Shown here: positions 33,792 through 47,503 of the stretch, piece by piece
Layout: each line of letters starts with the position of its first letter
Numbering within the stretch: the stretch's first letter is position 1
Assembly: GCF_000382065.1 (NCBI RefSeq)
Contig: NZ_KB907499.1
Coordinates: 171,631 to 235,630, forward strand
Direction of reading: 5' to 3'
Origin: Stenotrophomonas hibiscicola ATCC 19867
GTDB taxonomy: Bacteria; Pseudomonadota; Gammaproteobacteria; Xanthomonadales; Xanthomonadaceae
DNA: 64,000 nucleotides
The notes under the pieces: model-generated
What the model was told of the DNA's origin: nothing
What the model saw: only the letters and a program-made list of their open reading frames with translations
Database searches by the model: none
Translations under genes and position numbers: made by a program

Positions 33792-34913
33792 TCATGCCGC
33801 TGACGTCCATTGGCGGGCTTGGGTGGCACTGGCCGTGGCGGGCGCGGGCGAAGTCGCGTACACGCGCCCCTCGAACAAGCGGCGTGCGGTGCGGACCACG
33901 CTGGCAATCACCGGCGAATCGCCCGAGCTGCGACTGAGGCCCACCTCCAGGGCCCCACTCGGATGTTCGAGGGTAATGCTGCCGGGAACGGACCGGCATC
34001 CGACCAAAGTGTGGGCCAGCGTGCCCGGCGTGACGGCGGCGGTGGCCAGGCCGACCGCGCCGGTAATGGCCAGTGCGGTGTGGCATTGGTGCGGCATGAA
34101 ATAGCGCACCTGCAGATCGCCGCCCTGTTGCGGCGCCGACAGCAGCACCGGCTTGGGAATGACCTTGTTGCCGGCGTCGGCGATGCCCATGCGGGCGCCC
34201 GCCTCGATGCGCAGCGCTTCCAGCCGGCGCATGAACGCCGCGTCCGCGTTCAGTTCGGCGGGCGAGGCATCACCGCGCACGCCCAGATCTTCGGCACGCA
34301 CCAGCATCATCGGCATGGCGCAGTCCACCAGGCTGGCCGGCACGCCATTGATGGTTTCCTGCGCATGCCCGCTGGGCAGCAGCTTGCCGGTGCGGGCGCC
34401 TGCCGCATCAAGGAAGGACAGCCTGACCGGCGCGGCTGAGCCCGGCGCGCCGGCAATGCGCGTATCACCGCGGTAGGCCACATTGCCGCCCGGCGTTTCC
34501 ACCGTGGCGATGATCAACTTGCCGGTGTTGACGTTGTGGATGCGCACTTCGGTCTGCGGATCCTGCGCCTGCACCAGCCCACGCTCGATGGCATACGGGC
34601 CTACGGCCGCCAGCATGTTGCCGCAGTTGGGCGAGGTATCCACCACTTGCTGCTCGACCCGTACCTGGGCGAACAGGTAGTCGACATCGGCGTCCGGGCG
34701 GCTGGAGCGGTCGATGATCGCCACCTTGCTGGTCAGCGCGTTGCCACCGCCGATGCCGTCGATCTGCAGCGGATGTCCCGAGCCCATCACTTCCAGCAGC
34801 AGGCGATCGCGTTCGGCGGTGTCCGCCGGCAGGTCGCTGGCCAGGAAGAACGGGCCCTTGGAGGTGCCGCCGCGCATGAGCACGCAGGGAATGCTGAGCA
34901 GATCGTTGGACAT
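33792..34913 (-). CDS. GalD/PrpF-family isomerase (4-oxalomesaconate tautomerase-like)
   Basis: A 373-residue protein of the PrpF/GalD family, a diaminopimelate-epimerase-like two-domain fold that tautomerises or isomerises unsaturated tricarboxylates such as 4-oxalomesaconate or methylaconitate. Family blocks are CVLMRGGTSKGPFF near the N-terminus, QIDGIGGGNALTSKVAII, DTSPNCGNMLAAVGPYA (with the catalytic Cys) and PHQCHTALAITGA. The start is ATG at 34913. It is divergent from a LysR gene and upstream of an ABC importer. No gallate, protocatechuate or methylcitrate genes are nearby, so the real substrate is open. Confidence 0.88.
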   Translation of the reverse strand: MSNDLLSIPCVLMRGGTSKGPFFLASDLPADTAERDRLLLEVMGSGHPLQIDGIGGGNALTSKVAIIDRSSRPDADVDYLFAQVRVEQQVVDTSPNCGNMLAAVGPYAIERGLVQAQDPQTEVRIHNVNTGKLIIATVETPGGNVAYRGDTRIAGAPGSAAPVRLSFLDAAGARTGKLLPSGHAQETINGVPASLVDCAMPMMLVRAEDLGVRGDASPAELNADAAFMRRLEALRIEAGARMGIADAGNKVIPKPVLLSAPQQGGDLQVRYFMPHQCHTALAITGAVGLATAAVTPGTLAHTLVGCRSVPGSITLEHPSGALEVGLSRSSGDSPVIASVVRTARRLFEGRVYATSPAPATASATQARQWTSAA

Positions 34914-35011
34914 ACGTGTGCTAGATTGATGCGTATCGGGGATGAATGACCCCTCTGTGATTCGATACTGGCATGACCCCAATTGATCTGTGAATTGCTG
35001 ATTTTTGGATG

Positions 35012-35034
35012 ATTGATACCTGATGAGCATCAAT
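35012..35034 (+). promoter_or_regulatory. LysR-type dyad over the LysR start codon
   Basis: ATTGAT-N11-ATCAAT, a 6-bp interrupted dyad with the T-N11-A spacing typical of LysR boxes, overlaps the LysR start codon at 35023. It lies in the divergent promoter region with the GalD-like gene and may serve autoregulation. Confidence 0.45.
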
Positions 35035-35925
35035 TGCGAAATCCTCGATCTGCGTGCGTTCCTGCTGGTGTCGGAGACACGCAGCTTTCATCGGGCCGCG
35101 GAAATCCTTCACGTCTCCCAGCCCGCACTCAGCCGCCGGATCCAGAAACTGGAGCAGGCGGTGGGCTCGCCGCTGCTGGAGCGCACCACGCGCAGCGTCA
35201 GTACCACCGCCGTCGGCGAGAACCTGCTGCCACTGGTGCGCCGCATGCTGGAGGAATTCGATGGATCACTGTTCTCGCTGCGCGGCCGCGAAGACACCCG
35301 CGGCGCGACAGTGACCATCGCCTGCCTGCCGACGGCGGCGTTCTACTTCCTGCCCAGCGTGATGGCGCGTTTCCACGAAGCGCACCCGAACGTTCGCTTC
35401 CGCATTCTGGATATCCCGGCCACGGAGGGTCTGCAGGCAGTGGAACGTGGCGAAGTCGAGTTCGGCATCAACTTCATGGGCGCCAACGATCCGAATCTCG
35501 ACTTCGACGTGCTGGCTGAGGACCCCTTCGTCCTCGCCTGCCGGCGCGATCATCCGCTGGCCCGCAAGCGCAAAGTGGAATGGGCTGATCTGGCCGAGCA
35601 CCAGCTGATCACCGTGCATCGCACCAGCGGCAACCGCACGCTGCTGGACGGCGCGCTGGCGCGCGAGAACCTCAAGTTGAGCTGGCACTACGAAGTGACC
35701 CACCTGTCGACGTCACTGGGCATGGTCGAGGCGGGCATCGGCGTGTCGGTGCTACCGAAGATGGCCACGCCAGATGGGGATCACCCCACCCTGGTGACTC
35801 GCGCGATCGGCAACCCGGTGGTGTCGCGCACGATCGGCATCGTCCGCCGCCGCGGCGCCCTGCTCTCGCCCACGGCGGAGCGATTCCTGCAGATGCTGAT
35901 GAGCCAGTGGCGTGGGGAGGCGTGA
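35023..35925 (+). CDS. LysR-family transcriptional regulator
   Basis: A 300-residue LysR protein with an N-terminal winged helix (FLLVSETRSFHRAAEILHVSQPALSRRIQKLE) and a co-inducer-binding domain of two lobes. It is divergent from the GalD-like/ABC/porin operon with a 109-bp gap, which is the normal arrangement for LysR control of that operon. The inducer would presumably be the transported compound or its metabolite. Confidence 0.93.
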   Translation: MSINCEILDLRAFLLVSETRSFHRAAEILHVSQPALSRRIQKLEQAVGSPLLERTTRSVSTTAVGENLLPLVRRMLEEFDGSLFSLRGREDTRGATVTIACLPTAAFYFLPSVMARFHEAHPNVRFRILDIPATEGLQAVERGEVEFGINFMGANDPNLDFDVLAEDPFVLACRRDHPLARKRKVEWADLAEHQLITVHRTSGNRTLLDGALARENLKLSWHYEVTHLSTSLGMVEAGIGVSVLPKMATPDGDHPTLVTRAIGNPVVSRTIGIVRRRGALLSPTAERFLQMLMSQWRGEA

Positions 35926-35986: not shown

Positions 35987-36367
35987 TCATGACGAGGCCG
36001 CGAAGATCGACGCAATACCTGCAAGCGATCCCACGGCCACCCATGAGAGCGTGGCGAATGCAGTCAGCAGTACCTTGCGGTGGACGGCCTGCGCTTCGTT
36101 CTGGGCCTCCGACCGTCGCGCATAGGGCCTGGAGAAACCCAGCAGTTCGCCGGTGACAGTCAACACCCCCATCAGGATCAGTGCGGTCACGCAGAAGCCG
36201 AACATGGAGCCTATGAAGGCCAAATGGCGGGTGTCGCCGATAGCCGGCTGAGTCCCGGCCAGGGCTTCCACAAGTTGCCCCGTCCACCGTGCGGGCAGCC
36301 AGGCCAGGGCTGCGACAATGCCGAAGTGACTGGCCACGTTGATCCAGAACCAGGATGTGGTCTTCAT
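35987..36367 (-). CDS. Small integral membrane protein
   Basis: A 126-residue protein with three predicted membrane helices (around residues 8-25, 50-70 and 98-120) and a basic loop between the second and third. Start is ATG at 36367 (MKTTSWFWINVASHFG). The family is not recognised. It is convergent with the LysR gene and downstream of the SMAG palindrome. Confidence 0.7.
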   Translation of the reverse strand: MKTTSWFWINVASHFGIVAALAWLPARWTGQLVEALAGTQPAIGDTRHLAFIGSMFGFCVTALILMGVLTVTGELLGFSRPYARRSEAQNEAQAVHRKVLLTAFATLSWVAVGSLAGIASIFAASS

Positions 36368-36445
36368 CACGTCAGCGATTCCGGTGTTGGCCAGTGGCGG
36401 GCATCGTGACGCCTGCGCCAGCCCCGCGCAACGCTGCATGGGGAA

Positions 36446-36467
36446 GCCGGCCAGCGGCCGGCACTAC
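36446..36467 (-). repeat. SMAG-type GTAG palindromic repeat
   Basis: Read on the minus strand this is GTAG followed by TGCCGGCC-GCT-GGCCGGC: a GTAG head with an 8-bp hairpin, the structure reported for SMAG elements, a REP-like family numerous in Stenotrophomonas maltophilia. It lies between two membrane protein genes. Confidence 0.8.
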
Positions 36468-36475
36468 CAGGTCAA

Positions 36476-37003
36476 TCAGCCTGGGGTTTCCAGTCCCTTG
36501 CCTGCCGCATCCACCCTCAGCGAGGCCAGGTACCGGGCGTACTTGCCGACGAAGATGCCAGTGAACCCGCCTGTCAGCAGCAGGTAGGCGGCACTGAAAC
36601 CGGCATGGGCGGTCAGCGACGGCGACACCGCAAATGCGGCTTCGAAGCCGTACTTCACCAGGAAGGTGACCAGCAGCAGCGGCAGCAGGCTGAAGTCCGC
36701 GCTGCGCCAGAGCTTGCCGGTGCTGCGATCCAGCGTCAGCTTCAATCGATTCAGCAGCAGCCAGGCAAGTGCCGCGCCCGTTGCGATGCCGGCCAGCCAC
36801 TCGCTCCAGGCGGCCAGCGACGCGCCGAAGCGATGACTGATCGACCACGCGCCCCAGACTGCGAACAGCGCGGGCACGATCGCCAGTTTGTGCAGCGAGG
36901 TTTCTGCAGGCTTCATGGCGGCAATGCCACGGGTGACCAGGAAGGCCAGGAGCAGCCAGACCCAGACCGGCGTCTGCGAGGCGAGTTGCTGGAGCATGTT
37001 CAT
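36476..37003 (-). CDS. Conserved integral membrane protein
   Basis: A 175-residue protein with five or six predicted transmembrane helices (first at TPVWVWLLLAFLVTRGIAAM, last at YLLLTGGFTGIFVGKYARYL), resembling uncharacterised proteobacterial membrane proteins. Start ATG at 37003 has AAGGGGA nine bases upstream. It is divergent from a serine hydrolase gene across a 234-bp gap that holds two palindromes with a CAGCTG core. The function is unknown. Confidence 0.8.
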   Translation of the reverse strand: MNMLQQLASQTPVWVWLLLAFLVTRGIAAMKPAETSLHKLAIVPALFAVWGAWSISHRFGASLAAWSEWLAGIATGAALAWLLLNRLKLTLDRSTGKLWRSADFSLLPLLLVTFLVKYGFEAAFAVSPSLTAHAGFSAAYLLLTGGFTGIFVGKYARYLASLRVDAAGKGLETPG

Positions 37004-37093
37004 GAGCGGTCCCCTTGATGAGTGGTGGCTGAGTGGTGGCGAGGTGCCCTCGCATTGGCTCTCACTATTCGCTTCCGCCCGGGTTGCAGCCAG

Positions 37094-37105
37094 TGACAGC
37101 TGTCA
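37094..37105. promoter_or_regulatory. Palindrome TGACAGCTGTCA in a divergent promoter region
   Basis: A perfect 12-bp palindrome between the membrane protein (leftward) and serine hydrolase (rightward) genes. A second, nearly perfect 18-bp palindrome with the same CAGCTG centre (CCCCGGCAGCTGTCGGGG) lies at 37140-37157. They may be operator sites; no cognate regulator is identified. Confidence 0.4.
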
Positions 37106-37237
37106 GCCATCGCGGATGACCCGCCGGCATGCTGCGCGTCCCCGGCAGCTGTCGGGGTGGATTCACCCGGTGCACCCTGCGCGGGCCGGCCCTCAGTCCG
37201 CGCTACCATCACCACGACGCCGCTGCGAGCCACGTGC

Positions 37238-38389
37238 ATGTACCACGACCCTGTTCGACGTCGCCTGTGTGCGGCGCTGCTGGCCACTGGCTTCGGCCTG
37301 TCAGCACCATCGGCGCTGGCGAGCCGGGCGACGTTGGCGGGATGCGGTTCGCTGACCGCATTGCTGCAGGCCGAACGGCAGCCTGGCATGGCGGCCGTTC
37401 TGGTCGATCACGGGCGCATTGCCGCGCTGTGCACGACCGGGCGGCTCAATGACACCCGGCCTGCACCGATTGATCGCCATACCGTGTTCGAACTGGGGTC
37501 GATCACCAAGCTGTTCACGGCCCTGCTGATTTTCCGGCTCCAGCAGCGGCATCTGCTCGACGTCACCGCGCCCATCGGCCAGTACGTGGAAGGGTTGCCT
37601 TCCGCATGGGCATCCACTTCGCTGCTGCAGCTGCTGAGCCATACCTCAGGCATTCCCAACTATCTGAATGAAGAAAATTTCCTGCGGTTGATGCCGACGA
37701 ATCCAGCCCCCAGTGAATTGCTCGCAGAGGTGGCCGAGCGGCCGCTGGCGTTTGCGCCCGGTGCGCGGCACGCCTATTCCAATACGAACTACATCCTGCT
37801 CGGCCTGGCCATAGAGCATGCAACCGGCATGGACTACTGGCGGGTTCTGCAGGAGGAGATACTGTCGCCGCTGGGCATGCGCGATGCGGGACCGCGTCGT
37901 GCAGACGATCGGCGCCGGATTGCCCAGGGGCATCTGTTCCAGGATGGCCACTGGCGCGCACCACCGCCCACTGCTCCGGGCTCGGCATGGGCCGCCGGCG
38001 GCCTGCTCGCCAGCATCGACGACATGGCGCGCTTTGCTGTGGCGCTGGACCAGCATCGACTGTTGCCCGAGGCGGCCCTGAAGCGGATGTGGTGCGACAC
38101 ACTCCTCGCCAATGGCAGCAAGGCGGGCTGGGGGGCCGGCTGGGAAGTTTCCGATGGCGGAAAGGTAGTCGGCCATGGCGGCGGGACCGCAGGCTTTACC
38201 GGGTATCTCCGGCACCGTCCCACCGATCGAAGAACGCTCGTCGTACTGATCAATCGCGCCGGAGACATCAACCCGCAGGGCATTGCAGAGCGCCTCGACC
38301 TGGGCATGCGTCGCTGCAATGGGAGGCTTTCCAGGCCGGCGCCTTCGCTGGATCAACCCGGCACCCGGACAACGCGATCCATGCCATGA
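37238..38389 (+). CDS. Serine hydrolase, beta-lactamase class C fold
   Basis: A 383-residue exported protein (signal peptide to PSALASR) with all three motifs of the class C/DD-peptidase superfamily: S88-I-T-K91, Y180-S-N182 and HGGGTAGF in the KTG position. The core HTSGIPNYL is typical of EstB/AmpH-like members. The start is ATG at 37238. Function is probably as an esterase, D-aminopeptidase or peptidoglycan-related hydrolase; true beta-lactamase activity cannot be claimed. Confidence 0.85.
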   Translation: MYHDPVRRRLCAALLATGFGLSAPSALASRATLAGCGSLTALLQAERQPGMAAVLVDHGRIAALCTTGRLNDTRPAPIDRHTVFELGSITKLFTALLIFRLQQRHLLDVTAPIGQYVEGLPSAWASTSLLQLLSHTSGIPNYLNEENFLRLMPTNPAPSELLAEVAERPLAFAPGARHAYSNTNYILLGLAIEHATGMDYWRVLQEEILSPLGMRDAGPRRADDRRRIAQGHLFQDGHWRAPPPTAPGSAWAAGGLLASIDDMARFAVALDQHRLLPEAALKRMWCDTLLANGSKAGWGAGWEVSDGGKVVGHGGGTAGFTGYLRHRPTDRRTLVVLINRAGDINPQGIAERLDLGMRRCNGRLSRPAPSLDQPGTRTTRSMP

Positions 38390-38395
38390 CGCAGA

Positions 38396-39268
38396 TCATC
38401 GGCGCTGGCTGATGGAAATGCGCCGCCGGTACTGCGCCACCCACTCCAGCGACGGCGCAACACCGCCGAACGGGAAGAAATGCGGGCTGACCTGGCCATG
38501 GGCGCGGGTCAGCCCCTTCACCAGGCGATCGACGAAAACCTCCGGCCCCGCCGTTCCGAGCAGCCGGCCGATCGAGATGCCATACTGGGCGAGCATCGAT
38601 GCACTGGCGCCTACGCCACACATCGCCGCATAACGCAGCAAGCGGGCGATGCTGGCCGGACCCGGCACGCCGACCAGCACCGGAACGCTGATGCCGCGCG
38701 CGCGCAGTGCATCCAGCCAGGCCAGCACGGCATCGGCATCGAAGGCGAACTGGGTGACGATCACAGGCGCCATGCGGCGCGCTTCGATGGCCCGGCACTT
38801 GCGTTCGAGTACCTGCCAGCGAGCGTCGCCGCTCATCGCCGGATGGCCTTCCGGATGCCCGCCGATACCTACGACCTTGATGCCGAAACGCTCAAGACGC
38901 CCGGTCTCGATGATCGAAGCACTGTCGGCAAACGGCCCGGCAGGCGTGGCGAGGTCACCGGCGATCAGCAGGCAGCGCTCCACCCCGGCTTCGCTGGTGG
39001 CGCGCTCCAGGAAGCGTTCAAGCGCTGTGCGTGACCCGATGCGCCGCGCGGAGAGATGCGGCATCGGCTCGAATCCGAGCGCGCGCACGGTGCGCACGGC
39101 GGCCAGGCGGGCGTCGTCATCCTCGCTGGCCAGCCAGGGAATGGAGATGACCGTACCGCGCGGGATCCGATCCGCCTCGGCGCGCAGCGCGGGCATGGCC
39201 TTCGCGCTGACTTCCAGTGAAAAGGCGTTGATGAAGGCTTCCGCGCGCGCTGAGGTACCGACCGGCAT
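38396..39268 (-). CDS. Methylenetetrahydrofolate reductase (MetF)-like protein
   Basis: A 290-residue TIM-barrel protein of the MetF superfamily. Recognisable blocks are the N-terminal FSLEVS (MetF FEFFPP position), AGDLATPAGPF (the RGD/Asp position for flavin), GIGGHPEGHP (GYPExHP) and the C-terminal VPVLVGVPGPAS and HFFPFGG. The normal TYGA segment after strand 2 is replaced by SIPWLAS, so it is divergent from housekeeping MetF. Its ATG at 39268 shares one base with the metR stop (TGATG), so it is coupled to metR. It may supply or process one-carbon units for the adjacent MesD system; whether it reduces methylene-THF is untested. Confidence 0.82.
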   Translation of the reverse strand: MPVGTSARAEAFINAFSLEVSAKAMPALRAEADRIPRGTVISIPWLASEDDDARLAAVRTVRALGFEPMPHLSARRIGSRTALERFLERATSEAGVERCLLIAGDLATPAGPFADSASIIETGRLERFGIKVVGIGGHPEGHPAMSGDARWQVLERKCRAIEARRMAPVIVTQFAFDADAVLAWLDALRARGISVPVLVGVPGPASIARLLRYAAMCGVGASASMLAQYGISIGRLLGTAGPEVFVDRLVKGLTRAHGQVSPHFFPFGGVAPSLEWVAQYRRRISISQRR

Positions 39269-40182
39269 CAGCGCGCCTCGCGTGCATTGCCGGCAAGCGG
39301 CGAGCTGTTGCGGGCCAGTTCGATGAAGGCCTGCAGGTAGTCGATACCGGTATCGGCCTCGCGCGCGCCGAGATAGATCTGCTTGGGGATGCCCTTGGCG
39401 CCCAGGCGCACGGGCACCACGTCCATGCGCGCGGCGTACTCTTCCACCAGCCAGCGCGGCATTGCAGCCACGCCGCGGCCGCTGGCCACCATCTGCATCA
39501 TGATGTCGGTGGTTTCGATGGCCTTGTGGCGCCGCGGCGTGATGCCGGCCGGCAGCAGGAACTGGTTGTAGATGTCCAGGCGCTCGAACGGCACCGGATA
39601 ACTGATCAGCACTTCCTGGCCGAGCTGGCGCGGTTTTACGTGGTCCACCTTGGCCAGGGCATGGTTCCCGGCCACCACCAGCACCTGTTCGTAGTCGAAC
39701 ACGGGAATGAACTTCAGGCCCGGCTTCAGCAGCGGGTCGGGGGTAACCAGCAGGTCGATCTCGTAGCCGAACAATGCGCCGATACCGCCGAACTGGAACT
39801 TCTGCTTGACGTCCACATCCACGTCCGGCCATGCCGCCAGGTAGGGCGAGACAATCTTCAGCAGCCACTGGTAGCAGGGATGGCACTCCATGCCGATGCG
39901 CAACGCGCCACGCTCGCCCTGCGCGAACTGGCGCAGGCGCTCCTCGGCCAGGTCCAGCTGCGGCAGCACCCGGTTGGCCACTGCCAGCAGGTACTGTCCG
40001 GCCTGGGTCAGCCGCAGGCTGCGACCCTCACGCAGCCAGACCTCGGTACCCAGCTGCTGCTCCAGCTTCTTCATGCTGTGGCTGAGCGCCGACTGGGTCA
40101 GGTTGAGCACGCCGGCGGCGGCGGTGAGCGAGCCCTGCTGCTCGACCTGCTGCACGATGCTGAGGTGGATGCGCTCCAGCAT
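39268..40182 (-). CDS. metR: LysR-family regulator MetR
   Basis: A 304-residue LysR protein closely matching MetR: the HTH SLTAAAGVLNLTQSALSHSMKK, the effector-domain start IGMECHPCYQWL and VFDYEQVLVVAGNHALAK correspond to known MetR blocks. MetR activates methionine genes with homocysteine as co-effector. Start ATG at 40182; a GTG at 40197 is an alternative. It is divergent from the FMN reductase-mesX-mesD operon and coupled to the MetF-like gene, so it presumably controls both sides. Confidence 0.92.
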   Translation of the reverse strand: MLERIHLSIVQQVEQQGSLTAAAGVLNLTQSALSHSMKKLEQQLGTEVWLREGRSLRLTQAGQYLLAVANRVLPQLDLAEERLRQFAQGERGALRIGMECHPCYQWLLKIVSPYLAAWPDVDVDVKQKFQFGGIGALFGYEIDLLVTPDPLLKPGLKFIPVFDYEQVLVVAGNHALAKVDHVKPRQLGQEVLISYPVPFERLDIYNQFLLPAGITPRRHKAIETTDIMMQMVASGRGVAAMPRWLVEEYAARMDVVPVRLGAKGIPKQIYLGAREADTGIDYLQAFIELARNSSPLAGNAREAR

Positions 40183-40227
40183 GACGATGAATCTCACTCA
40201 TGGATAGGTGAAGTAATACCATTTTAC

Positions 40228-40245
40228 GTCATGGAAAGGCATGAC
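40228..40245 (+). promoter_or_regulatory. Inverted repeat in the metR/FMN reductase promoter region
   Basis: GTCATG-GAAAGG-CATGAC is a perfect 6-bp dyad 12 bp before the FMN reductase ATG. TGAATCTCACTCA on the plus strand, at the metR start, and TGAAGTAATACC nearby loosely resemble MetR TGAA-N5-TTCA sites. This 75-bp gap is the only space for shared MetR control. Confidence 0.45.
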
Positions 40246-40257
40246 TAGGATCGGGTC

Positions 40258-40845
40258 ATGCCTTCATCCCACCGCCCTCTCCGTATCGTCGCCGTGTCCG
40301 GGGGGCTGCAGCGCCCCTCGCGGGCCACCCTCCTGGCCGAGCATCTGCTGGGCGTGATCGGCAACGACGTCCATTGCGAACACCATCTGATCGAGCTCGG
40401 CGAGCTCGCCCCGCAGCTGGCCGGCGCCCTGTGCCGCTCACAATTGCCCGAGGCTGTCGAGCGCCAGCTGCTTGCCGTCGAGCACGCCGATGTCCTCGTG
40501 GTGAGCACACCGGTCTATCGCGGCTCGTACACCGGGCTGTTCAAGCATTTCTTCGACTTCATCCACCAGGATGCGCTGGTCGACACCCCCATCCTGCTGG
40601 CCGCGACCGGCGGCAGCGAGCGCCATGCGCTGGTGATCGACCACCAGCTGCGGCCGCTCTTCAGCTTCTTCCAGGCCCGCACCTTGCCGCTGGGCGTCTA
40701 TGCCACCGACCGCGATTTCGCCGACGGCCGCGTGCACAACGAACCGCTGATCGAGCGCGCTCGACTGGCGGTCCACCGAGCCATGCCACTGCTGGCCCTG
40801 GCCCGCCAGCCCGTCGCCGCCCTCGAGGCTGCCGCAGCACCCTGA
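40258..40845 (+). CDS. NAD(P)H-dependent FMN reductase (SsuE/MsuE-like)
   Basis: A 195-residue flavodoxin-fold reductase. The phosphate-binding loop is VSGGLQRPSRATLLAEH and the isoalloxazine-contact region is VSTPVYRGSYTGLFKHFFDF, as in SsuE/MsuE. These enzymes supply FMNH2 to two-component monooxygenases. Here no SsuD- or MsuD-type monooxygenase follows; instead mesX starts 57 nt downstream, so the reduced flavin may serve the oxygen-dependent MesX/MesD methionine synthesis. This partnership is inferred from gene order. Confidence 0.9.
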   Translation: MPSSHRPLRIVAVSGGLQRPSRATLLAEHLLGVIGNDVHCEHHLIELGELAPQLAGALCRSQLPEAVERQLLAVEHADVLVVSTPVYRGSYTGLFKHFFDFIHQDALVDTPILLAATGGSERHALVIDHQLRPLFSFFQARTLPLGVYATDRDFADGRVHNEPLIERARLAVHRAMPLLALARQPVAALEAAAAP

Positions 40846-40902
40846 ATGCCGGATGCGCTCGCCCCGCATCCGGATGTCACCCCGCATCACGGAACGCCGC
40901 CC

Positions 40903-41880
40903 ATGACGAACGACACCTTCACCTTCAGCATCACGCGCATCCCCTTCAACGAGGACTACCAGCCCGCCGAGGGCACGCGCATCACCACCAATTTCGCCAA
41001 TCTGGCGCGCGGCGCTTCCCGGCGGGAAAACCTGCGCAACACCCTCAGCATGATCAACAACCGCTTCAACGACCTGGCGCACTGGGACAACCCGAGCGCC
41101 GATCGTTATGCCGTCGAGCTGGACATCATCTCGGTGGAGATGCACATCGACGGCGCCGACGGCAACGATCCGTTTCCGTTGATCGAGGTGCTGCAACCGA
41201 CCATCGTCGACACGCGGACCGGCGCGCGTATCGAAGGCATCGTCGGCAACAATTTCTCGTCCTACGTGCGTGATTACGATTTCAGCGTGGTGCTGCCGGC
41301 CAGCAACGAGGGCAAGGCCACCTTCGGCATTCCGGAAGGCTTTGGCGACCTGCACGGCAAGCTGTTCAAGCACTTCCTTGGATCGGACGCCTACCGCGCC
41401 AGCTTCCGCAAGGGGCCGGTGATCTGCATCAGCGTCTCCAGCAGCAGGACCTACCACCGCACCGAGAATCATCACCCCATCCTGGGCGTGGAGTACCGGC
41501 AGGGCGAGTTCTCCGCCACCGACCACTACTTCGACAAGATGGGCCTGCAGGTACGTTACTTCATGCCGCCGGGCAGCGTCGCGCCGCTGGCGTTCTACTT
41601 CCAGGGCGACCTGCTGGGCGACTACTCGAACCTGGAGCTGATCGGCACCATCAGCACGATGGAAGCGTTCCAGAAAATCTACCGCCCGGAGATCTACAAC
41701 GCCAATTCCGTGGCCGGCAAGGTCTACCAGCCCAGCCTGAAGCACCAGGATTACTCGTCCACCCGCATCGTCTACGACCGCGAAGAGCGCAGCCAGCTGG
41801 CGGTCAAGCAGGGCCGGTTCACCGAAGAGCACTTCATCAAGCCGTACCGCGCCGTGCTTGAGCAGTGGGCTGCGCGCTGA
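40903..41880 (+). CDS. mesX: MesX (DUF1852), partner of the MesD methionine synthase
   Basis: A 325-residue DUF1852 protein. Members are encoded beside MesD and, from genetic studies of folate-independent methionine synthases, are needed with oxygen for MesD function; their chemistry is unknown. Visible features are FTFSITRIPFNEDY at the N-terminus, NLRNTLSMINNRFNDL, and conserved Glu/His-rich TENHHPILGVEY with TDHYFDKMGLQVRYFMPPGS, which could hold a metal or flavin. I chose ATG at 40903, where homology-like sequence begins; an ATG at 40846 abuts the FMN reductase stop. The protein has no signal peptide and is probably cytosolic. Confidence 0.88.
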   Translation: MTNDTFTFSITRIPFNEDYQPAEGTRITTNFANLARGASRRENLRNTLSMINNRFNDLAHWDNPSADRYAVELDIISVEMHIDGADGNDPFPLIEVLQPTIVDTRTGARIEGIVGNNFSSYVRDYDFSVVLPASNEGKATFGIPEGFGDLHGKLFKHFLGSDAYRASFRKGPVICISVSSSRTYHRTENHHPILGVEYRQGEFSATDHYFDKMGLQVRYFMPPGSVAPLAFYFQGDLLGDYSNLELIGTISTMEAFQKIYRPEIYNANSVAGKVYQPSLKHQDYSSTRIVYDREERSQLAVKQGRFTEEHFIKPYRAVLEQWAAR

Positions 41881-41922
41881 TCCATCGATTTCCCCTTCGC
41901 ATACCAGGACAACCCGACACCG

Positions 41923-42951
41923 ATGAAGAAACTGCTCCCCACCTCCACCGCCGGCAGCCTGCCCAAGCCGTCCTGGCTGGCAGAACCCGAAAAGCTCTGG
42001 TCGCCCTGGAAGCTGCAGGACGAAGGCCTGGCTGAAGGCAAGCAGGATGCGCTGCGCCTGTCGCTGCAGGAACAGCAACACGCGGGCATCGACATCGTCA
42101 GCGACGGTGAGCAGACCCGGCAGCACTTCGTCACTACCTTCATCGAGCATCTCAGCGGCGTTGACTTCGAAAAGCGCGAAACCGTGCGCATCCGTAACCG
42201 CTACGATGCCAGCGTGCCCACCGTGGTCGGCGCCGTGAGCCGTCCGAAGCCGGTGTTCGTGGAGGATGCGAAGTTCCTGCGCCGCCAGACTGCGCAGCCG
42301 ATCAAGTGGGCGCTGCCCGGCCCGATGACGATGATCGACACGCTGTACGACGCCCACTACAGGAGCCGGGAGAAGCTGGCCTGGGAGTTCGCGAAGATCC
42401 TCAACGAGGAAGCGAAGGAGCTGGAAGCGGCCGGCGTGGACATCATCCAGTTCGATGAGCCGGCCTTCAATGTGTTCTTCGACGAAGTGAACGACTGGGG
42501 CGTGGCCGCCCTGGAGCGCGCGATCGAAGGGCTGACGTGCGAGACAGCCGTGCACATCTGCTACGGTTACGGGATCAAGGCCAACACCGACTGGAAGCAG
42601 ACGCTGGGATCGGAATGGCGCCAGTACGAGGAATCGTTCCCGAAACTGCAGGCCTCCAGCCTCGACATCATTTCGCTGGAATGCCATAACTCGCACGTGC
42701 CGATCGACCTGATCGAGCTGGTCCGTGGCAAGAAGGTGATGGTAGGCGCGATCGACGTGGCCTCGAGCGCGGTGGAAACACCGGAAGAAGTGGCCGACAC
42801 CCTGCGCAGGGCGCTGCAGTTCGTGGATGCCGACAAGCTTTACCCCAGCACCAACTGCGGCATGGCGCCGCTGGCCCGCACCGTGGCCAGGGGCAAGCTG
42901 CGCGCGCTCAGCGAAGGGGCCAGGATCGTGCGTGAGGAGCTTTCGGCGTAG
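41923..42951 (+). CDS. mesD: Methionine synthase MesD (MetE C-terminal-domain type)
   Basis: A 342-residue protein equal to the catalytic C-terminal domain of cobalamin-independent methionine synthase, without the N-terminal folate-binding domain of MetE. Zinc/homocysteine-site residues are visible: H211 and C213 (HICYGYG), C312 (STNCGMAP), and the D/E pair in IDIVSDGEQTR and IIQFDEPAFN. It transfers a methyl group to homocysteine; with MesX it works without folate or B12 but needs oxygen, and the methyl donor is unknown. It is the last gene of the operon, 42 bp after mesX, and its end overlaps a convergent small gene. Confidence 0.9.
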   Translation: MKKLLPTSTAGSLPKPSWLAEPEKLWSPWKLQDEGLAEGKQDALRLSLQEQQHAGIDIVSDGEQTRQHFVTTFIEHLSGVDFEKRETVRIRNRYDASVPTVVGAVSRPKPVFVEDAKFLRRQTAQPIKWALPGPMTMIDTLYDAHYRSREKLAWEFAKILNEEAKELEAAGVDIIQFDEPAFNVFFDEVNDWGVAALERAIEGLTCETAVHICYGYGIKANTDWKQTLGSEWRQYEESFPKLQASSLDIISLECHNSHVPIDLIELVRGKKVMVGAIDVASSAVETPEEVADTLRRALQFVDADKLYPSTNCGMAPLARTVARGKLRALSEGARIVREELSA

Positions 42952-43444
42952 CGTTTGCCAGGGCTGTGGGCGTCCTGCCGGGTACCGACCACGCCTGACA
43001 CGTTAACTGCCCCAAGGGCCTTGCAGGCTGCCGCGGTGCGAGCGCCTGCTTGATGCGTGCCACCTCCCCTGTCCCGGCCTCGGCCAGGCGGCGCGCCTGC
43101 TGGCGCTGCTCCCGTGTGAGCGGCGGCGGCCGCGCCGCGCCTGCCGAAGGCGCGGCGCCCACGAGACAGGCGACCGCGTCGCGCAGCCGCAACCGGGGGC
43201 AAAGCCGAGCCGCGCACCAGCGCTCGGCATAGCGCCGGGCTTGCCGCGCATTCACCGCGTGCACCACCTTGGCCGGGGACATCCTGCGTGCATCCAGGTA
43301 CACCTGGAAGCCGAGCACTGCGTGCGGGACGATGCTGGCCACGATGCGGCCGCTCCACCATAGATCCCAGCGCTCACCGCGTTGCACCCAGCCGGAGGAC
43401 GCGGGGACTGCCGGGAGACCGCGAAGATCGGAGAAGGAATGCAT
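42908..43444 (-). CDS. Hypothetical protein, 178 residues
   Basis: Starts at ATG 43444 (MHSFSDLRGLPAVPASSGWV) and ends convergently inside the last 44 bp of mesD. The first half looks like a real folded domain (GWVQRGERWDLWWSGRIVASIVPHAVLG then RQARRYAERWCAARL); the second half is basic and Ala/Arg-rich. There is no signal peptide. The family is not recognised; the overlap with mesD makes the C-terminal part less certain. Confidence 0.6.
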   Translation of the reverse strand: MHSFSDLRGLPAVPASSGWVQRGERWDLWWSGRIVASIVPHAVLGFQVYLDARRMSPAKVVHAVNARQARRYAERWCAARLCPRLRLRDAVACLVGAAPSAGAARPPPLTREQRQQARRLAEAGTGEVARIKQALAPRQPARPLGQLTCQAWSVPGRTPTALANATPKAPHARSWPLR

Positions 43445-43691
43445 GCAGGAAGGATACGGGCTGCCGTCGCAGGGGATGAGATTCGAAAGGGCACGTAGCC
43501 GCGGCCGTGAATCGTTCAATGGAAACGCAACGGTGCAGTATGATCGCTGCCCTCTCGGCACCGGCATGCATCATTGGCATGACACATCACCGGCGATCAC
43601 CCGCCGGCATGCTCAACGATGCAACAGCCATTACCCCCGGCGCTGGCCAGGTCGCGGCACGCAGACGCTCGGCCGGTGTCCGCTCCGTCGT

Positions 43692-44435
43692 TCAGATCCG
43701 CGTCGTGGCCAGGAACCGTTCACGATCCTGCTGCGTGCGCCGGCGGATCTCCTCCAGCGCCTGGCTTTCGGTCGCCTGCAGCATGGCTTCGAACAGGCGC
43801 TGGAAGTGATGGCGCATCGCATTGCGTGCGGCCACCGGATCACGCGCACGCAGGGCTTCGAAGATGGCCATGTGCTCGTCGGCACGGCTGGCGCCATCAT
43901 CGTGGCAGACCCGGGCATAGACCTCGGTCACCCGCGGCAGTTCGCTGCGCATGCGCCAGATCTGCTGCACGAAAAATTCCACCACCGGATTGCCGGAAAG
44001 CCGTGCGATGGCCAGGTGGAAACGGCGGTCGTACTCGCCGGCTTCGGCGTCGCTCAGGTCGCGACGGCACAGCGCTTCGGCCAACGACTGCAATTCGGCA
44101 ATGCCGGCATCATCCAGATTGCTGGCAGCCAGCGCGGCAGCCTCGGCTTCGAATACCGCGCGGGCAGCGGTGAGGTCGAAGGCGCTGACATCCGGCAGCC
44201 CGCCGGACGCCTGCGTCGGGCGCGGCTTCACATGCACGCCCGAACCGATGCGGATGGCGATCCAGCCCTGTGCTTCCAGTGCGATCTCGGCTTCGCGGAT
44301 GGTGACCCGGCTGACACCGAACCGTTCGGCCAGTTCACGCTCGCCCGGCAGCCGCGAGCCCGGCGGAAATTCGCCGTCCTCGATCAGCTTGCGGAGCTTG
44401 GCAGCGATGGTCTGGTAAAGGCGGTTGGCGGACAT
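43692..44435 (-). CDS. GntR-family regulator, FadR subfamily
   Basis: A 247-residue regulator: N-terminal winged helix (LRKLIEDGEFPPGSRLPGERELAERFGVSRVTIREAEIALE) and C-terminal all-helical FCD domain with metal/ligand His and Asp residues (EYDRRFHLAIARLSGNP). It lies 102 bp downstream of the alginate TonB receptor on the same strand. Regulators of this type control uronate and alginate loci with KDG or KDPG-like effectors, so it probably represses this locus through the paired ATACCA-type sites at 47504-47554. Confidence 0.9.
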   Translation of the reverse strand: MSANRLYQTIAAKLRKLIEDGEFPPGSRLPGERELAERFGVSRVTIREAEIALEAQGWIAIRIGSGVHVKPRPTQASGGLPDVSAFDLTAARAVFEAEAAALAASNLDDAGIAELQSLAEALCRRDLSDAEAGEYDRRFHLAIARLSGNPVVEFFVQQIWRMRSELPRVTEVYARVCHDDGASRADEHMAIFEALRARDPVAARNAMRHHFQRLFEAMLQATESQALEEIRRRTQQDRERFLATTRI

Positions 44436-44508
44436 GCGGCTGACCCTTGGCGATTCCCTCCGGGTCCCTGCCCTGCCACCGCGGCCGGCAAGGGTCCGGT
44501 TGGAGCGA

Positions 44509-44531
44509 CGGCGCGACCACTGGCCGCGCCG
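44509..44531 (-). other. Hairpin between the alginate receptor and gntR
   Basis: CGGCGCG, 9-base loop, CGCGCCG: a 7-bp stem starting 7 bp after the receptor stop. There is no T-run on the minus strand; it could allow partial readthrough into gntR. Confidence 0.45.
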
Positions 44532-44537
44532 CCCTGT

Positions 44538-47429
44538 TCAGAACTTGTATCGTACACCGAAATACGCACGCCGCCCGTAGGTCACCACTTCGCGGAAGTT
44601 CCCATAAAGCGGCTGGTAGGCCACGCGCGGCTCGTTGGTCAGGTTCATCAGCTCCAGCGACAGCGACAACTGCTTGTTCACCCGGTAGCGCAGGCGCAGG
44701 TCCACGCTGGTGTTGTCATCATAGTAGCGGTTCTGCTGCGCGGTGTTGCCGGTGAAGTCCTGGTAGTAGTGCGAGCGGAACTTGCCGATGGCCTGGATGT
44801 TGAAGCGCCCGACGTCCCAGTAGATCGAGCCGGACAGGACGTGCCGCGAGAAGCCGCTGAGACCCGCCGGCGGCACGATCGCCGGAATGATCGTGCCATC
44901 ACTGGCCAGCTGCTCGCCCAGTCGTGAGTCCTGGGTCCGGTAGTCGGCATCGGCGTAGTTGTAGCTGACCTTGAAGCCCAGCCCGTCGAACGGCTTGGGC
45001 AGGTACGACAGTCGATGGGTGGCGGTCAGCTCGAAGCCGGTCAGCGTGCTGTCCTCGTCGGTGGTTACCTGCTGCCGCACCGGCACAGTCACGCTCTGGC
45101 CGTCGATGGTGTAGGTCTCCGGCACCAGCGCGGTGGCGGTGCCGCCGTTGAACTGCTTCCAGTACACCGCGCCGGCCAGCATCGTGTCCGGGTTCGGGTA
45201 CCACTCCAGTGACAGGTCGCCGTTCCAGGACATCAGCGGCTGTGCCGCCGGGTTGCCACTGGCGCTGATGTCATCCAGCGCATCGGCCAGGTTGCCGTAG
45301 GTGGCATCACTGCTCACGTTGATGGTGCGCCCCGCACCCAGCGCGGCGATGTCCGGCCGTGACATCGCGCGGTACGCACCGACCCGCAGCAACACGTCCG
45401 GGCGCAGTTCGAAGGCCGCGTTGAGGCTGGGCAGCAGCTTGTCGTTGCCCGCCTTGAACACCTGCGTGCTGTACTCGCCGGTGGGTTGCAGGCGGATCGT
45501 CCCGTCACCGTTGTCCTCGATACGCAGGCCGGTACGCACGCCTTCGGAGCGAACATCGGTCTTGACCCAGCGCAGGCCGAGGTTGCCGGTCACCGGCAAA
45601 CCGAACAGGCTGCTGCTGAACTCACCCAGCAGATAGAGCGCGCGTGTCTTCTCGGTGATATCGACATTGTTCGGATCCTGGAAACCCGGATCCAGCCCGC
45701 TGTCGAGGCTGCCACGGAACGACTGGTACAGGCAGTTCGGATCGAAGTACGCCCACGAGGAGATCGTGTTGCCGCTGGCGGCATCCATGAAGTCATCCTG
45801 GGGGAATGGTGCACGGCAGGCCTGGTTGGCAGCGATGATCTTCGCCTTGTCGGCCGCCACGCGCTGGTCGTAGTCGGTTACCAGGGTGTTGTCGCGCAGG
45901 CGGTAGTCGGCCTGGCTGGCGCGCACGCCGCCCTTGATGCGGGTGAAGAAACCGGACTCGGGCATGAAACTGGCATCGAAGCGGCCGGCCTTGATCTTGT
46001 GGTCATTCTCCGTTGCGCTTGAGGTCACCCGCGCCGCCCCGGTGTAGGCGTCCCAGTTGGTGGGGTCGAAGTTCGGCGCCAGCGCGACACTGGGCACTTC
46101 GCCGTGCCAGTCCCAGTCATAGTCCACGTAGCCGGTGGCACCACTGCTGATGCCGGGCACGGCGGCATTGTTGACGTCGCGCTGGTTCGCGCGCAGGCGG
46201 GTCATGCGCTCGCTATCGAGGCGATTGGTATGCGAGTACGAAAGATCGGTGGACAGCTCCCAGGCCGGGGTCGGTCGCAGGATCAGGTTCAGGCCACCCC
46301 CGGTGTATTCCTCGCCACGCCAGTAGCGGTTGGAGGTGGAGTCGATCGAGGTGCTGCCATGCAGGTGGCGCACGATGCCCTCTGCGTCCACGTCGCGCTG
46401 GGTGATGCCGCGACGTGCGTTGGACAGGCTCAGATCGCTGCGGTTCTCGTACCAGTTGCGCTCGGTGTGTTCGAAGTCGAGATTCACTTCAACCACGTCA
46501 TTGGGCCGCCACTGCAGTGCAGCGAACTCGCTCTGGCGGTCGTTGCGCTCCTGCTTGAGCCGGTAGATGCGGCTGCTGGGCACCAGGTAGTAAGGTGCGC
46601 CGTTGGCGATGGCCTGCGCGGACACTTCATTGCAGTTGGCATTGCCCACGTTCTGCGTGCCATCGCAGGCATACCAGGTGGAACCGCTGGTGATGCTCTC
46701 TTCCGGATCGGTGCCGTCCAGGCGCTGGAAACCCAGCGAAATGCCCAGCTTCTGCCCGTTGCCGAACTCGAACTGGTCGATGTAGCTGGCGGTGCCGCGG
46801 TAGCCGATGCCGTCGTCGTCGCGATACTTCTTGTCATACTCGGCCCAGCTGCCACGCAGATCGATCTGCGCCGCCCGCTTGCCGTACTCCAGTGGGCGCA
46901 CTGTTTCCAGGCCGATGGTGCCGGCCACGCCGCCTTCGATGATGTCGGCGCGCTGGGTCTTGTAGATGGCGACCGTATTGATCAGCTCGGCGGGGAACAT
47001 GTTGAAGTTCACCGAGCGGTCGCCACTGCCGTTGGTGATCTCGCGGCCATTGAAGTTGGTGCTGCTGAGGAAGGCGCCCAGGCCACGGATGGAGATTTCC
47101 GAGGCCCCGGTCTTGTCGCGGGTCGAGGCGGCGCCGGTCAGGGTCTCGATCGCGTCGGCCAGCGAGGGCGCCGGCAGGTCGCCGATGTCATCGGCCGAGA
47201 GCACATCGGCAATGACCGTGTCGTCGCGCTTCTTGTTGATCGAACTCTGCATCGATTCGCGGATGCCGGTGACCTGCACCTGGTCCAGCGTGGTGGGATC
47301 CTGCCCTGCTGCCTCCTTGCTGGATTGCGCCTGGGCCGTGGGCAGGCCCGCCAGCACGGCGAGCAGCGCCACGATCAGGGGTGTGGGGGACAACGAGATG
47401 CTGTGCACTGCTCCGGCGGGTCGCCGCAT
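44538..47429 (-). CDS. TonB-dependent receptor, alginate/oligouronate type
   Basis: A 963-residue outer-membrane receptor with a signal peptide (to GLPTAQAQ), plug domain (VQVTGIRESMQSSINKKRDD, LADAIETLTGAASTRDKTG, IEGGVAGTIGLETVRPLEYG) and barrel ending in the Phe-terminated GVRYKF. Start ATG at 47429 is preceded by an excellent AGGAGG. It is divergent from the PL6/PL17 lyase operon, with shared operator sites between, so alginate oligosaccharides are the likely ligand. It is unlike the xylan receptor in its plug and loops. Confidence 0.93.
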   Translation of the reverse strand: MRRPAGAVHSISLSPTPLIVALLAVLAGLPTAQAQSSKEAAGQDPTTLDQVQVTGIRESMQSSINKKRDDTVIADVLSADDIGDLPAPSLADAIETLTGAASTRDKTGASEISIRGLGAFLSSTNFNGREITNGSGDRSVNFNMFPAELINTVAIYKTQRADIIEGGVAGTIGLETVRPLEYGKRAAQIDLRGSWAEYDKKYRDDDGIGYRGTASYIDQFEFGNGQKLGISLGFQRLDGTDPEESITSGSTWYACDGTQNVGNANCNEVSAQAIANGAPYYLVPSSRIYRLKQERNDRQSEFAALQWRPNDVVEVNLDFEHTERNWYENRSDLSLSNARRGITQRDVDAEGIVRHLHGSTSIDSTSNRYWRGEEYTGGGLNLILRPTPAWELSTDLSYSHTNRLDSERMTRLRANQRDVNNAAVPGISSGATGYVDYDWDWHGEVPSVALAPNFDPTNWDAYTGAARVTSSATENDHKIKAGRFDASFMPESGFFTRIKGGVRASQADYRLRDNTLVTDYDQRVAADKAKIIAANQACRAPFPQDDFMDAASGNTISSWAYFDPNCLYQSFRGSLDSGLDPGFQDPNNVDITEKTRALYLLGEFSSSLFGLPVTGNLGLRWVKTDVRSEGVRTGLRIEDNGDGTIRLQPTGEYSTQVFKAGNDKLLPSLNAAFELRPDVLLRVGAYRAMSRPDIAALGAGRTINVSSDATYGNLADALDDISASGNPAAQPLMSWNGDLSLEWYPNPDTMLAGAVYWKQFNGGTATALVPETYTIDGQSVTVPVRQQVTTDEDSTLTGFELTATHRLSYLPKPFDGLGFKVSYNYADADYRTQDSRLGEQLASDGTIIPAIVPPAGLSGFSRHVLSGSIYWDVGRFNIQAIGKFRSHYYQDFTGNTAQQNRYYDDNTSVDLRLRYRVNKQLSLSLELMNLTNEPRVAYQPLYGNFREVVTYGRRAYFGVRYKF

Positions 47430-47503
47430 GGTTTCCTCCTCCCAAAGGATCGCCTGCATGCCAGGCGTGGGACGCAGCTTCGGCACGGCGACATGAAAAT
47501 GTC

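Follow-up and report, generated by a model that had tools for sequence, protein, structure and literature searches.

Does the methionine synthase system formed by MesX and MesD draw on reduced flavin together with oxygen (O2), and is the flavin mononucleotide (FMN) reductase encoded beside it part of that system? The question is raised by a locus at positions 38396-42951 of a 64,000-nucleotide window (the whole stretch of DNA analysed here) from Stenotrophomonas hibiscicola ATCC 19867, contig NZ_KB907499.1. Here an MsuE-type NAD(P)H:FMN reductase gene (40258-40845, + strand), mesX (DUF1852, encoding a putative oxygenase; 40903-41880, +) and mesD (encoding a methionine synthase without the folate domain; 41923-42951, +) lie head to tail, with gaps of 57 base pairs (bp) between reductase and mesX and 42 bp between mesX and mesD. 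The unit, of which the reductase gene is the first, is divergent from a metR-like gene for a LysR regulator (39268-40197, -), and this is followed on the same minus strand by a methylenetetrahydrofolate reductase (MTHFR)-like gene (38396-39271, -) that overlaps it by 4 bp. The initial annotation had suggested that MesX uses the reduced flavin and O2 to release a methyl group. We found that the distribution of reductase genes across genomes partly supports and partly weakens this flavin hypothesis, and the cross-genome test is the new part of the analysis.

The gene set and its position were confirmed by profile scores. MesX matched PF08908 ('Putative oxygenase MesX') with 603.9 bits against a gathering cut-off of 25, and MesD matched NF006589 with 699.4 bits (cut-off 392) and adjoins mesX; the start codon of mesX was picked from the family alignment. 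The reductase passed the MsuE model TIGR03566 (248.6 bits, cut-off 212.5), matched PF03358 with 94 bits and failed the SsuE model TIGR03567 (94.8 bits, cut-off 164.05). The reported lack of a flavin monooxygenase agreed with a Pfam scan of the 13 open reading frames (ORFs) between 33.8 and 47.5 kb, two of which had no family match; the remaining window and genome were not tested for such an enzyme. The closest MesX match, named S. maltophilia, was 95% identical. The genome also carries metH and, at another site, a canonical metF (290.3 bits), while a search of the genome for metE found none, mesD being the sole PF01717 match. Judged by sequence, the locus belongs to the known MesX/MesD type, a module for methionine synthesis that needs neither B12 nor folate.

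This system was described by Price et al. 2021 (PMC7857596). According to the available passages of that paper, MesD requires MesX and O2 and not MetF (Sphingomonas koreensis genes), in E. coli the pair mesX and mesD rescues mutants of metE or metF only when air is present, a putative flavin reductase is frequently encoded close to MesD and MesX, and flavin use by MesX was predicted. The same passages state that 69% of the 85 proteomes with MesD as the apparent sole methionine synthase seem to be without MetF; given this absence in most MesD-only proteomes, the methylfolate trap would be avoided there by another road. The flavin mechanism is therefore a hypothesis published in 2021, and our data support an existing idea and not a new one. 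Later biochemical work on MesX was not found among the literature matches listed, whose coverage mostly leaves out subscription papers. The pathway gives methionine without B12 in aerobic bacteria, including opportunistic pathogens.

We examined 134 mesX loci: the 80 nearest named loci from 589 confirmed relatives (set A, which is biased towards the window's genome), all 44 genomes with MesX among 398 evenly drawn Pseudomonadota genomes (set B, the window's genome included), and 10 plasmid loci that were opened. A reductase was counted when it was on the same strand and its start fell within the interval from 1.5 kb before to 4.5 kb after the start of mesX; some contigs end near mesX, where an absent neighbour is not proof of absence. 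The mesD gene followed mesX in all 124 loci of the two sets (80/80 in set A and 44/44 in set B). A reductase was present in 62 of the 80 loci of set A (23 MsuE-type and 39 PF01613-type, leaving 18 without reductase) and in 6 of the 44 of set B (4 MsuE-type, three of these Stenotrophomonas, and 2 PF01613-type). Whole-genome Pfam searches of the 44 set B genomes recovered the same six reductase loci among the PF01613 and PF03358 matches listed, and genome G374 had an additional PF03358 gene about 3 kb from mesX on the opposite strand. For plasmids (209 records matched), an annotated reductase was found in 4 of the 10 mesX loci opened and none in the other 6. As a general rule, the permanence of the reductase beside mesXD fails, with none in 38 of the 44 set B genomes. 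In its 4.42 Mb, the window's genome has 8 genes of PF03358 and 2 of PF01613, and given 10 reductase genes per 4.4 Mb we infer that the association is far above chance.

A few mesX loci were unusual in themselves. The MesX of a record titled Bacillus subtilis SK6B4 (L087) was almost identical to the Pseudochrobactrum protein (L089), and the contig is probably mislabelled or a contamination. Genome G082 had two MesX fragments (C1:2175963-2176446), one with an internal stop, apart from an intact mesX, and in the Pantoea piersonii plasmid NZ_CP115896.1 (238496-240232) the mesX match was split in two across a gene annotated as an IS1 transposase.

The reductases linked to mesXD, which recur in several lineages, were of three kinds, MsuE, HsaB-like and RutF-like, spread over two unrelated Pfam families, PF03358 (flavodoxin-like) and PF01613. 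By comparison with two references that are mutually 28% identical, 30 of the 43 clustered PF01613 proteins were HsaB-like and 13 RutF-like; these two names are best NCBIfam matches below cut-off, and the MsuE type is over cut-off. One HsaB-like member (L107) was only 28% identical to its own reference, and one RutF-like member (L080) lies 7.5 kb away and is not adjacent to mesXD. The families that the three kinds resemble supply reduced flavin to two-component monooxygenases. Gene order also varied, being mesX-reductase-mesD in L122. In an Acinetobacter locus (L101, 10888-10973), a C4 antisense RNA match lies downstream of the mesXD-reductase genes.

Reductase adjacency was mapped on a tree of MesX sequences built by a quick method under LG+G4. 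The tree covers the 134 loci except L050, which leaves 133 rows, and the plasmid loci carry labels taken from their annotation. The minimum number of label changes was 5 for MsuE, 16 for PF01613 and 21 for the three states together, against means of 25.7, 36.4 and 58.3 with shuffled labels, and taking just the branches with a star (95% or higher), 3 changes remain unavoidable for MsuE and 7 for PF01613. The adjacency was thus gained or lost repeatedly, and since 27 of the 28 MsuE rows fall within one clade, the MsuE type may have had few origins. A supply of reduced flavin would then be useful to mesXD and any reductase would do, which would explain why E. coli needs none added; labile partners fit both a diffusible reduced flavin and the sufficiency of mesX and mesD in E. 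coli. With three reductase kinds recurring, the flavin hypothesis gains as a target for experiments, and redundancy offers a reason why knocking out a reductase may have no effect.

Our preferred reading, to which we give a probability of about 0.55, is a MetR-controlled mesXD unit with a reductase-fed two-component flavin system, in which MesX would be the oxygenase half and the dedicated reductase optional. The MsuE-type reductase would make reduced FMN (FMNH2) from NAD(P)H, and the reduced flavin would diffuse to MesX, which would use O2 to take a methyl group from some central metabolite. The group may be parked on C175 of MesX, its one invariant cysteine (234 sequences), and MesD would pass it to homocysteine. 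The dedicated reductase would boost the system without being essential to it, as other reductases of the cell can take its place.

The use of reduced flavin and O2 by MesX is favoured by the three reductase kinds recurring beside mesXD and by the B12 repression reported in the available part of a study of A. baumannii (PMC12892962, see below). Several points weigh against it: 38 of the 44 broadly sampled mesXD loci have no reductase, E. coli needs no more than mesX and mesD according to the available text of PMC7857596, and a good second model of MesX (101 sequences) gave no convincing match to any solved fold. A first model, which was poor (18 sequences, predicted local distance difference test score, pLDDT, of 69.5), gave no structural match. 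The matches of MesX to poxvirus proteins in a profile search of PDB sequences (E 0.014 and 0.57) were weak and were taken as chance.

A rival explanation makes MesX a metal-dependent oxygenase that works without flavin, with ligands among H151, H191, E197 and other invariant acids; the neighbouring reductase would then do no more than hold a metal in its reduced state, or would have a different job. In the window's MesX, H151 and H191 are the sole histidines conserved without exception across 234 sequences, and they stand beside invariant acidic residues, E197 among them; both the lack of a convincing fold match and the majority of broadly sampled loci without reductase agree with this explanation. 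We consider it rather unlikely, however, given that the three reductase kinds recurring at the locus resemble those of two-component flavin monooxygenases. The same recurrence bears on the idea of the reductase as a bystander, co-regulated with methionine or sulfur genes and serving another flavin enzyme at some other place in the genome, such as a sulfonate monooxygenase. The reductase does score as MsuE, a name associated with the use of methanesulfonate, and is absent from those 38 set B loci; but unrelated reductases recur beside mesXD and one of them sits between mesX and mesD, and a bystander role appears unlikely to us.

The initial annotation had placed the operon under MetR. For the metR-like gene, NF011950 MetR was the best of 53 models, yet its score of 223.1 bits is below the cut-off of 382. 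Its start is likelier the ATG at 40182 than the GTG at 40197, because the latter would place an operator-like site inside the gene. This site, TGAATCTCACTCA (40188-40200), has one mismatch to TGAAN5TTCA, which we take to be the consensus of the MetR box, and a second conserved element, TGAAGTAATACCATTTTA (40209-40226), lies 21 bp downstream of it. A site with at most one mismatch to the consensus was present in all 24 metR-reductase intergenic regions compared, against 5.1% of shuffled regions; sets A and B together have 26 loci with an upstream reductase, and the two left out, L044 and L054, had no metR-like match there. The TGAA-like/ACCA element 21 bp past the first site ranked in the top three matches of 23 of the 24 regions. 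The MetR-like box is a case of conservation, in which many regions come from close relatives and do not count as 24 independent cases. The operon is presumably controlled by MetR.

A link to B12 has been reported in A. baumannii, where, according to the available part of PMC12892962, B12 lowers the transcript of the DUF1852 gene (log2 -8.33) and that of the flavin reductase ABUW_3196 (log2 -2.52). No riboswitch was found at the Stenotrophomonas mesXD locus (window positions 36000-46000, E up to 1). A cobalamin riboswitch was directly upstream of mesX in 2 of the 8 named loci tested (L077 and L107, with alphaproteobacterial mesX) and, under strict filters, in 2 of the 44 set B genomes (G277 and G371).

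The MTHFR-like gene beside metR lies within the annotated locus and had gone unmentioned. It matched PF02219 with 43.5 bits and fell far below the canonical MetF model TIGR00676 (39.7 bits, cut-off 293.7). Against PDB entries 7xg9/7xlf its product scored 224.7 bits (E 1.8e-65), and other MTHFR structures gave 46.2 bits at most; 7xg9 is presumably the MTHFR of Sphingobium SYK-6. Among plasmid relatives of the protein, 40-55% identical (101 records matched, 40 listed), an aminomethyltransferase (GcvT-like) gene was adjacent or two genes off in 6 of 6 annotated loci, and two further loci were opened that had no annotation. In SYK-6, the LigM demethylase is annotated as an aminomethyltransferase-family protein and its locus tag comes immediately before that of metF (available part of PMC12997858). 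A 2026 review, in its accessible portion, states that an MTHFR subfamily, e.g. that of Sphingobium SYK-6, prefers the oxidation of 5-methyl-tetrahydrofolate (5-methyl-THF) and works with a LigM-type demethylase (PMC13001107, citing Yu et al. 2025). By sequence, the MTHFR-like gene belongs to this demethylase-coupled type.

A tblastn search with 4 aminomethyltransferase-family queries (E 1e-5) detected no tetrahydrofolate-dependent demethylase around mesX in the 134 loci, nor in the window, so the MTHFR-like enzyme would have another use here. Its type suggests that it may oxidise 5-methyl-THF that MetH cannot use without B12. The other direction has only slightly less than even odds in our judgement: the enzyme would run forward and make 5-methyl-THF for MetH under MetR, and its place beside mesXD would reflect an ordinary methionine regulon. 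The metH and canonical metF of the genome give 5-methyl-THF a use, E. coli metF is under metR control, and the lack of a demethylase near mesX agrees with a forward role; yet the protein groups with MTHFRs encoded beside aminomethyltransferase-family genes, and its subfamily is said to favour the reverse reaction in the accessible portion of PMC13001107.

MTHFR-family genes of two subfamilies were found within 5 kb of mesX in 24 of the 80 loci of set A, 5 of the 44 of set B and 1 of the 10 plasmid loci. The window's type accompanied 18 of the 23 MsuE-reductase loci and one PF01613 locus of set A, and 3 Stenotrophomonas loci of set B. The PF02219+PF12225 type was present in 5 of the 39 PF01613 loci of set A, 2 of the 38 reductase-less loci of set B and one plasmid, and none of the 18 reductase-less loci of set A had an MTHFR-family neighbour. 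The neighbour was in two pieces in L119 and a fragment in L042. QueH is a B12-independent epoxyqueuosine reductase. Its gene was within 5 kb of mesX in 11 of the 80 loci of set A, 1 of the 44 of set B and 1 of the 10 plasmid loci (two Pfam-checked), and anywhere in the genome in 15 of the 44 set B genomes. All these neighbour counts describe related loci and not independent events, and both neighbours are rare among the broadly sampled genomes. In two Xanthomonas loci (L043 and L049) the divergent unit was metR-queH-MTHFR. The window's genome has queH elsewhere, with a cobalamin riboswitch (G000 C7:93924-94904) 228 bp before the queH domain, a spacing that is the same in two other Stenotrophomonas genomes (G094 and G391); queG is also present in the window's genome.

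These neighbours point to a more tentative reading, somewhat doubtful as yet, in which mesXD would form the centre of an island that spares B12: the MTHFR beside it, under the same MetR promoter region, would turn trapped 5-methyl-THF into methylene-THF. With MesD not using folate and MetH stopped by B12 shortage, the 5-methyl-THF that MetF makes would accumulate, and the MTHFR may drain the pool left by the idle MetH. A bacterial methylfolate trap has been described (available part of PMC5070874). Two MTHFR subfamilies and QueH were brought to the mesXD neighbourhood in several lineages. The available text of Price et al. 2021 (PMC7857596) does not mention queH, queuosine, riboswitch or methylcitrate, and the neighbourhood seems, perhaps, to be unreported in the literature on DUF1852, MesX, and QueH with cobalamin, as far as coverage mostly without subscription papers can tell. 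The company of MTHFR and QueH in some lineages is the more surprising element, and suggests that a methionine synthase which does without folate may itself bring about a folate problem.

Around the locus, a gene for a beta-lactamase-family (PF00144) serine hydrolase (37157-38389, +) is convergent with the MTHFR-like gene, and a PrpF-family gene (33792-35033, -) is divergent from, and slightly overlaps, a LysR regulator gene (35023-35925, +). A link to the methylcitrate cycle was dropped here: by NCBIfam the PrpF-family gene encodes a 4-oxalomesaconate tautomerase (501.8 bits, cut-off 440), and it scored 222.8 bits with the PrpF model, below the cut-off of 440.55. Downstream of mesD (42908-47486, -) lie an unknown ORF (219 amino acids), a GntR/FCD regulator and a TonB-dependent receptor. 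Phosphoenolpyruvate (PEP)-mutase/methylisocitrate-lyase family genes were close to mesXD in 6 of the 134 loci, and TauE/SafE-family transporter genes in 13.

The locus can be compared with three known systems. Two-component flavin monooxygenases consist of partner pairs such as MsuD/MsuE, HpaB/HpaC and HsaA/HsaB, and reductases resembling their subunits adjoin mesXD; for MesX, the PDB-sequence profile search gave no oxygenase relative and no fold match was convincing. For the demethylase-coupled MTHFR of SYK-6, ligM and metF have neighbouring locus tags, and the plasmid relatives of the Stenotrophomonas MTHFR-like protein sit beside aminomethyltransferase-family genes; around the 134 mesX genes and in the window such a demethylase was not found. 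The third system is MesX/MesD of Sphingomonas koreensis and Acinetobacter baylyi (Price et al. 2021), where mesX and mesD of the same families are likewise adjacent, a flavin reductase has been reported nearby and MetH is present in the genome. In the four Acinetobacter loci (L065, L101, L161 and L168) the reductase is RutF-like and lies downstream of mesD, whereas in Stenotrophomonas it is of the MsuE type and upstream of mesX, and is joined by the divergent metR-like gene and the MTHFR-like gene.

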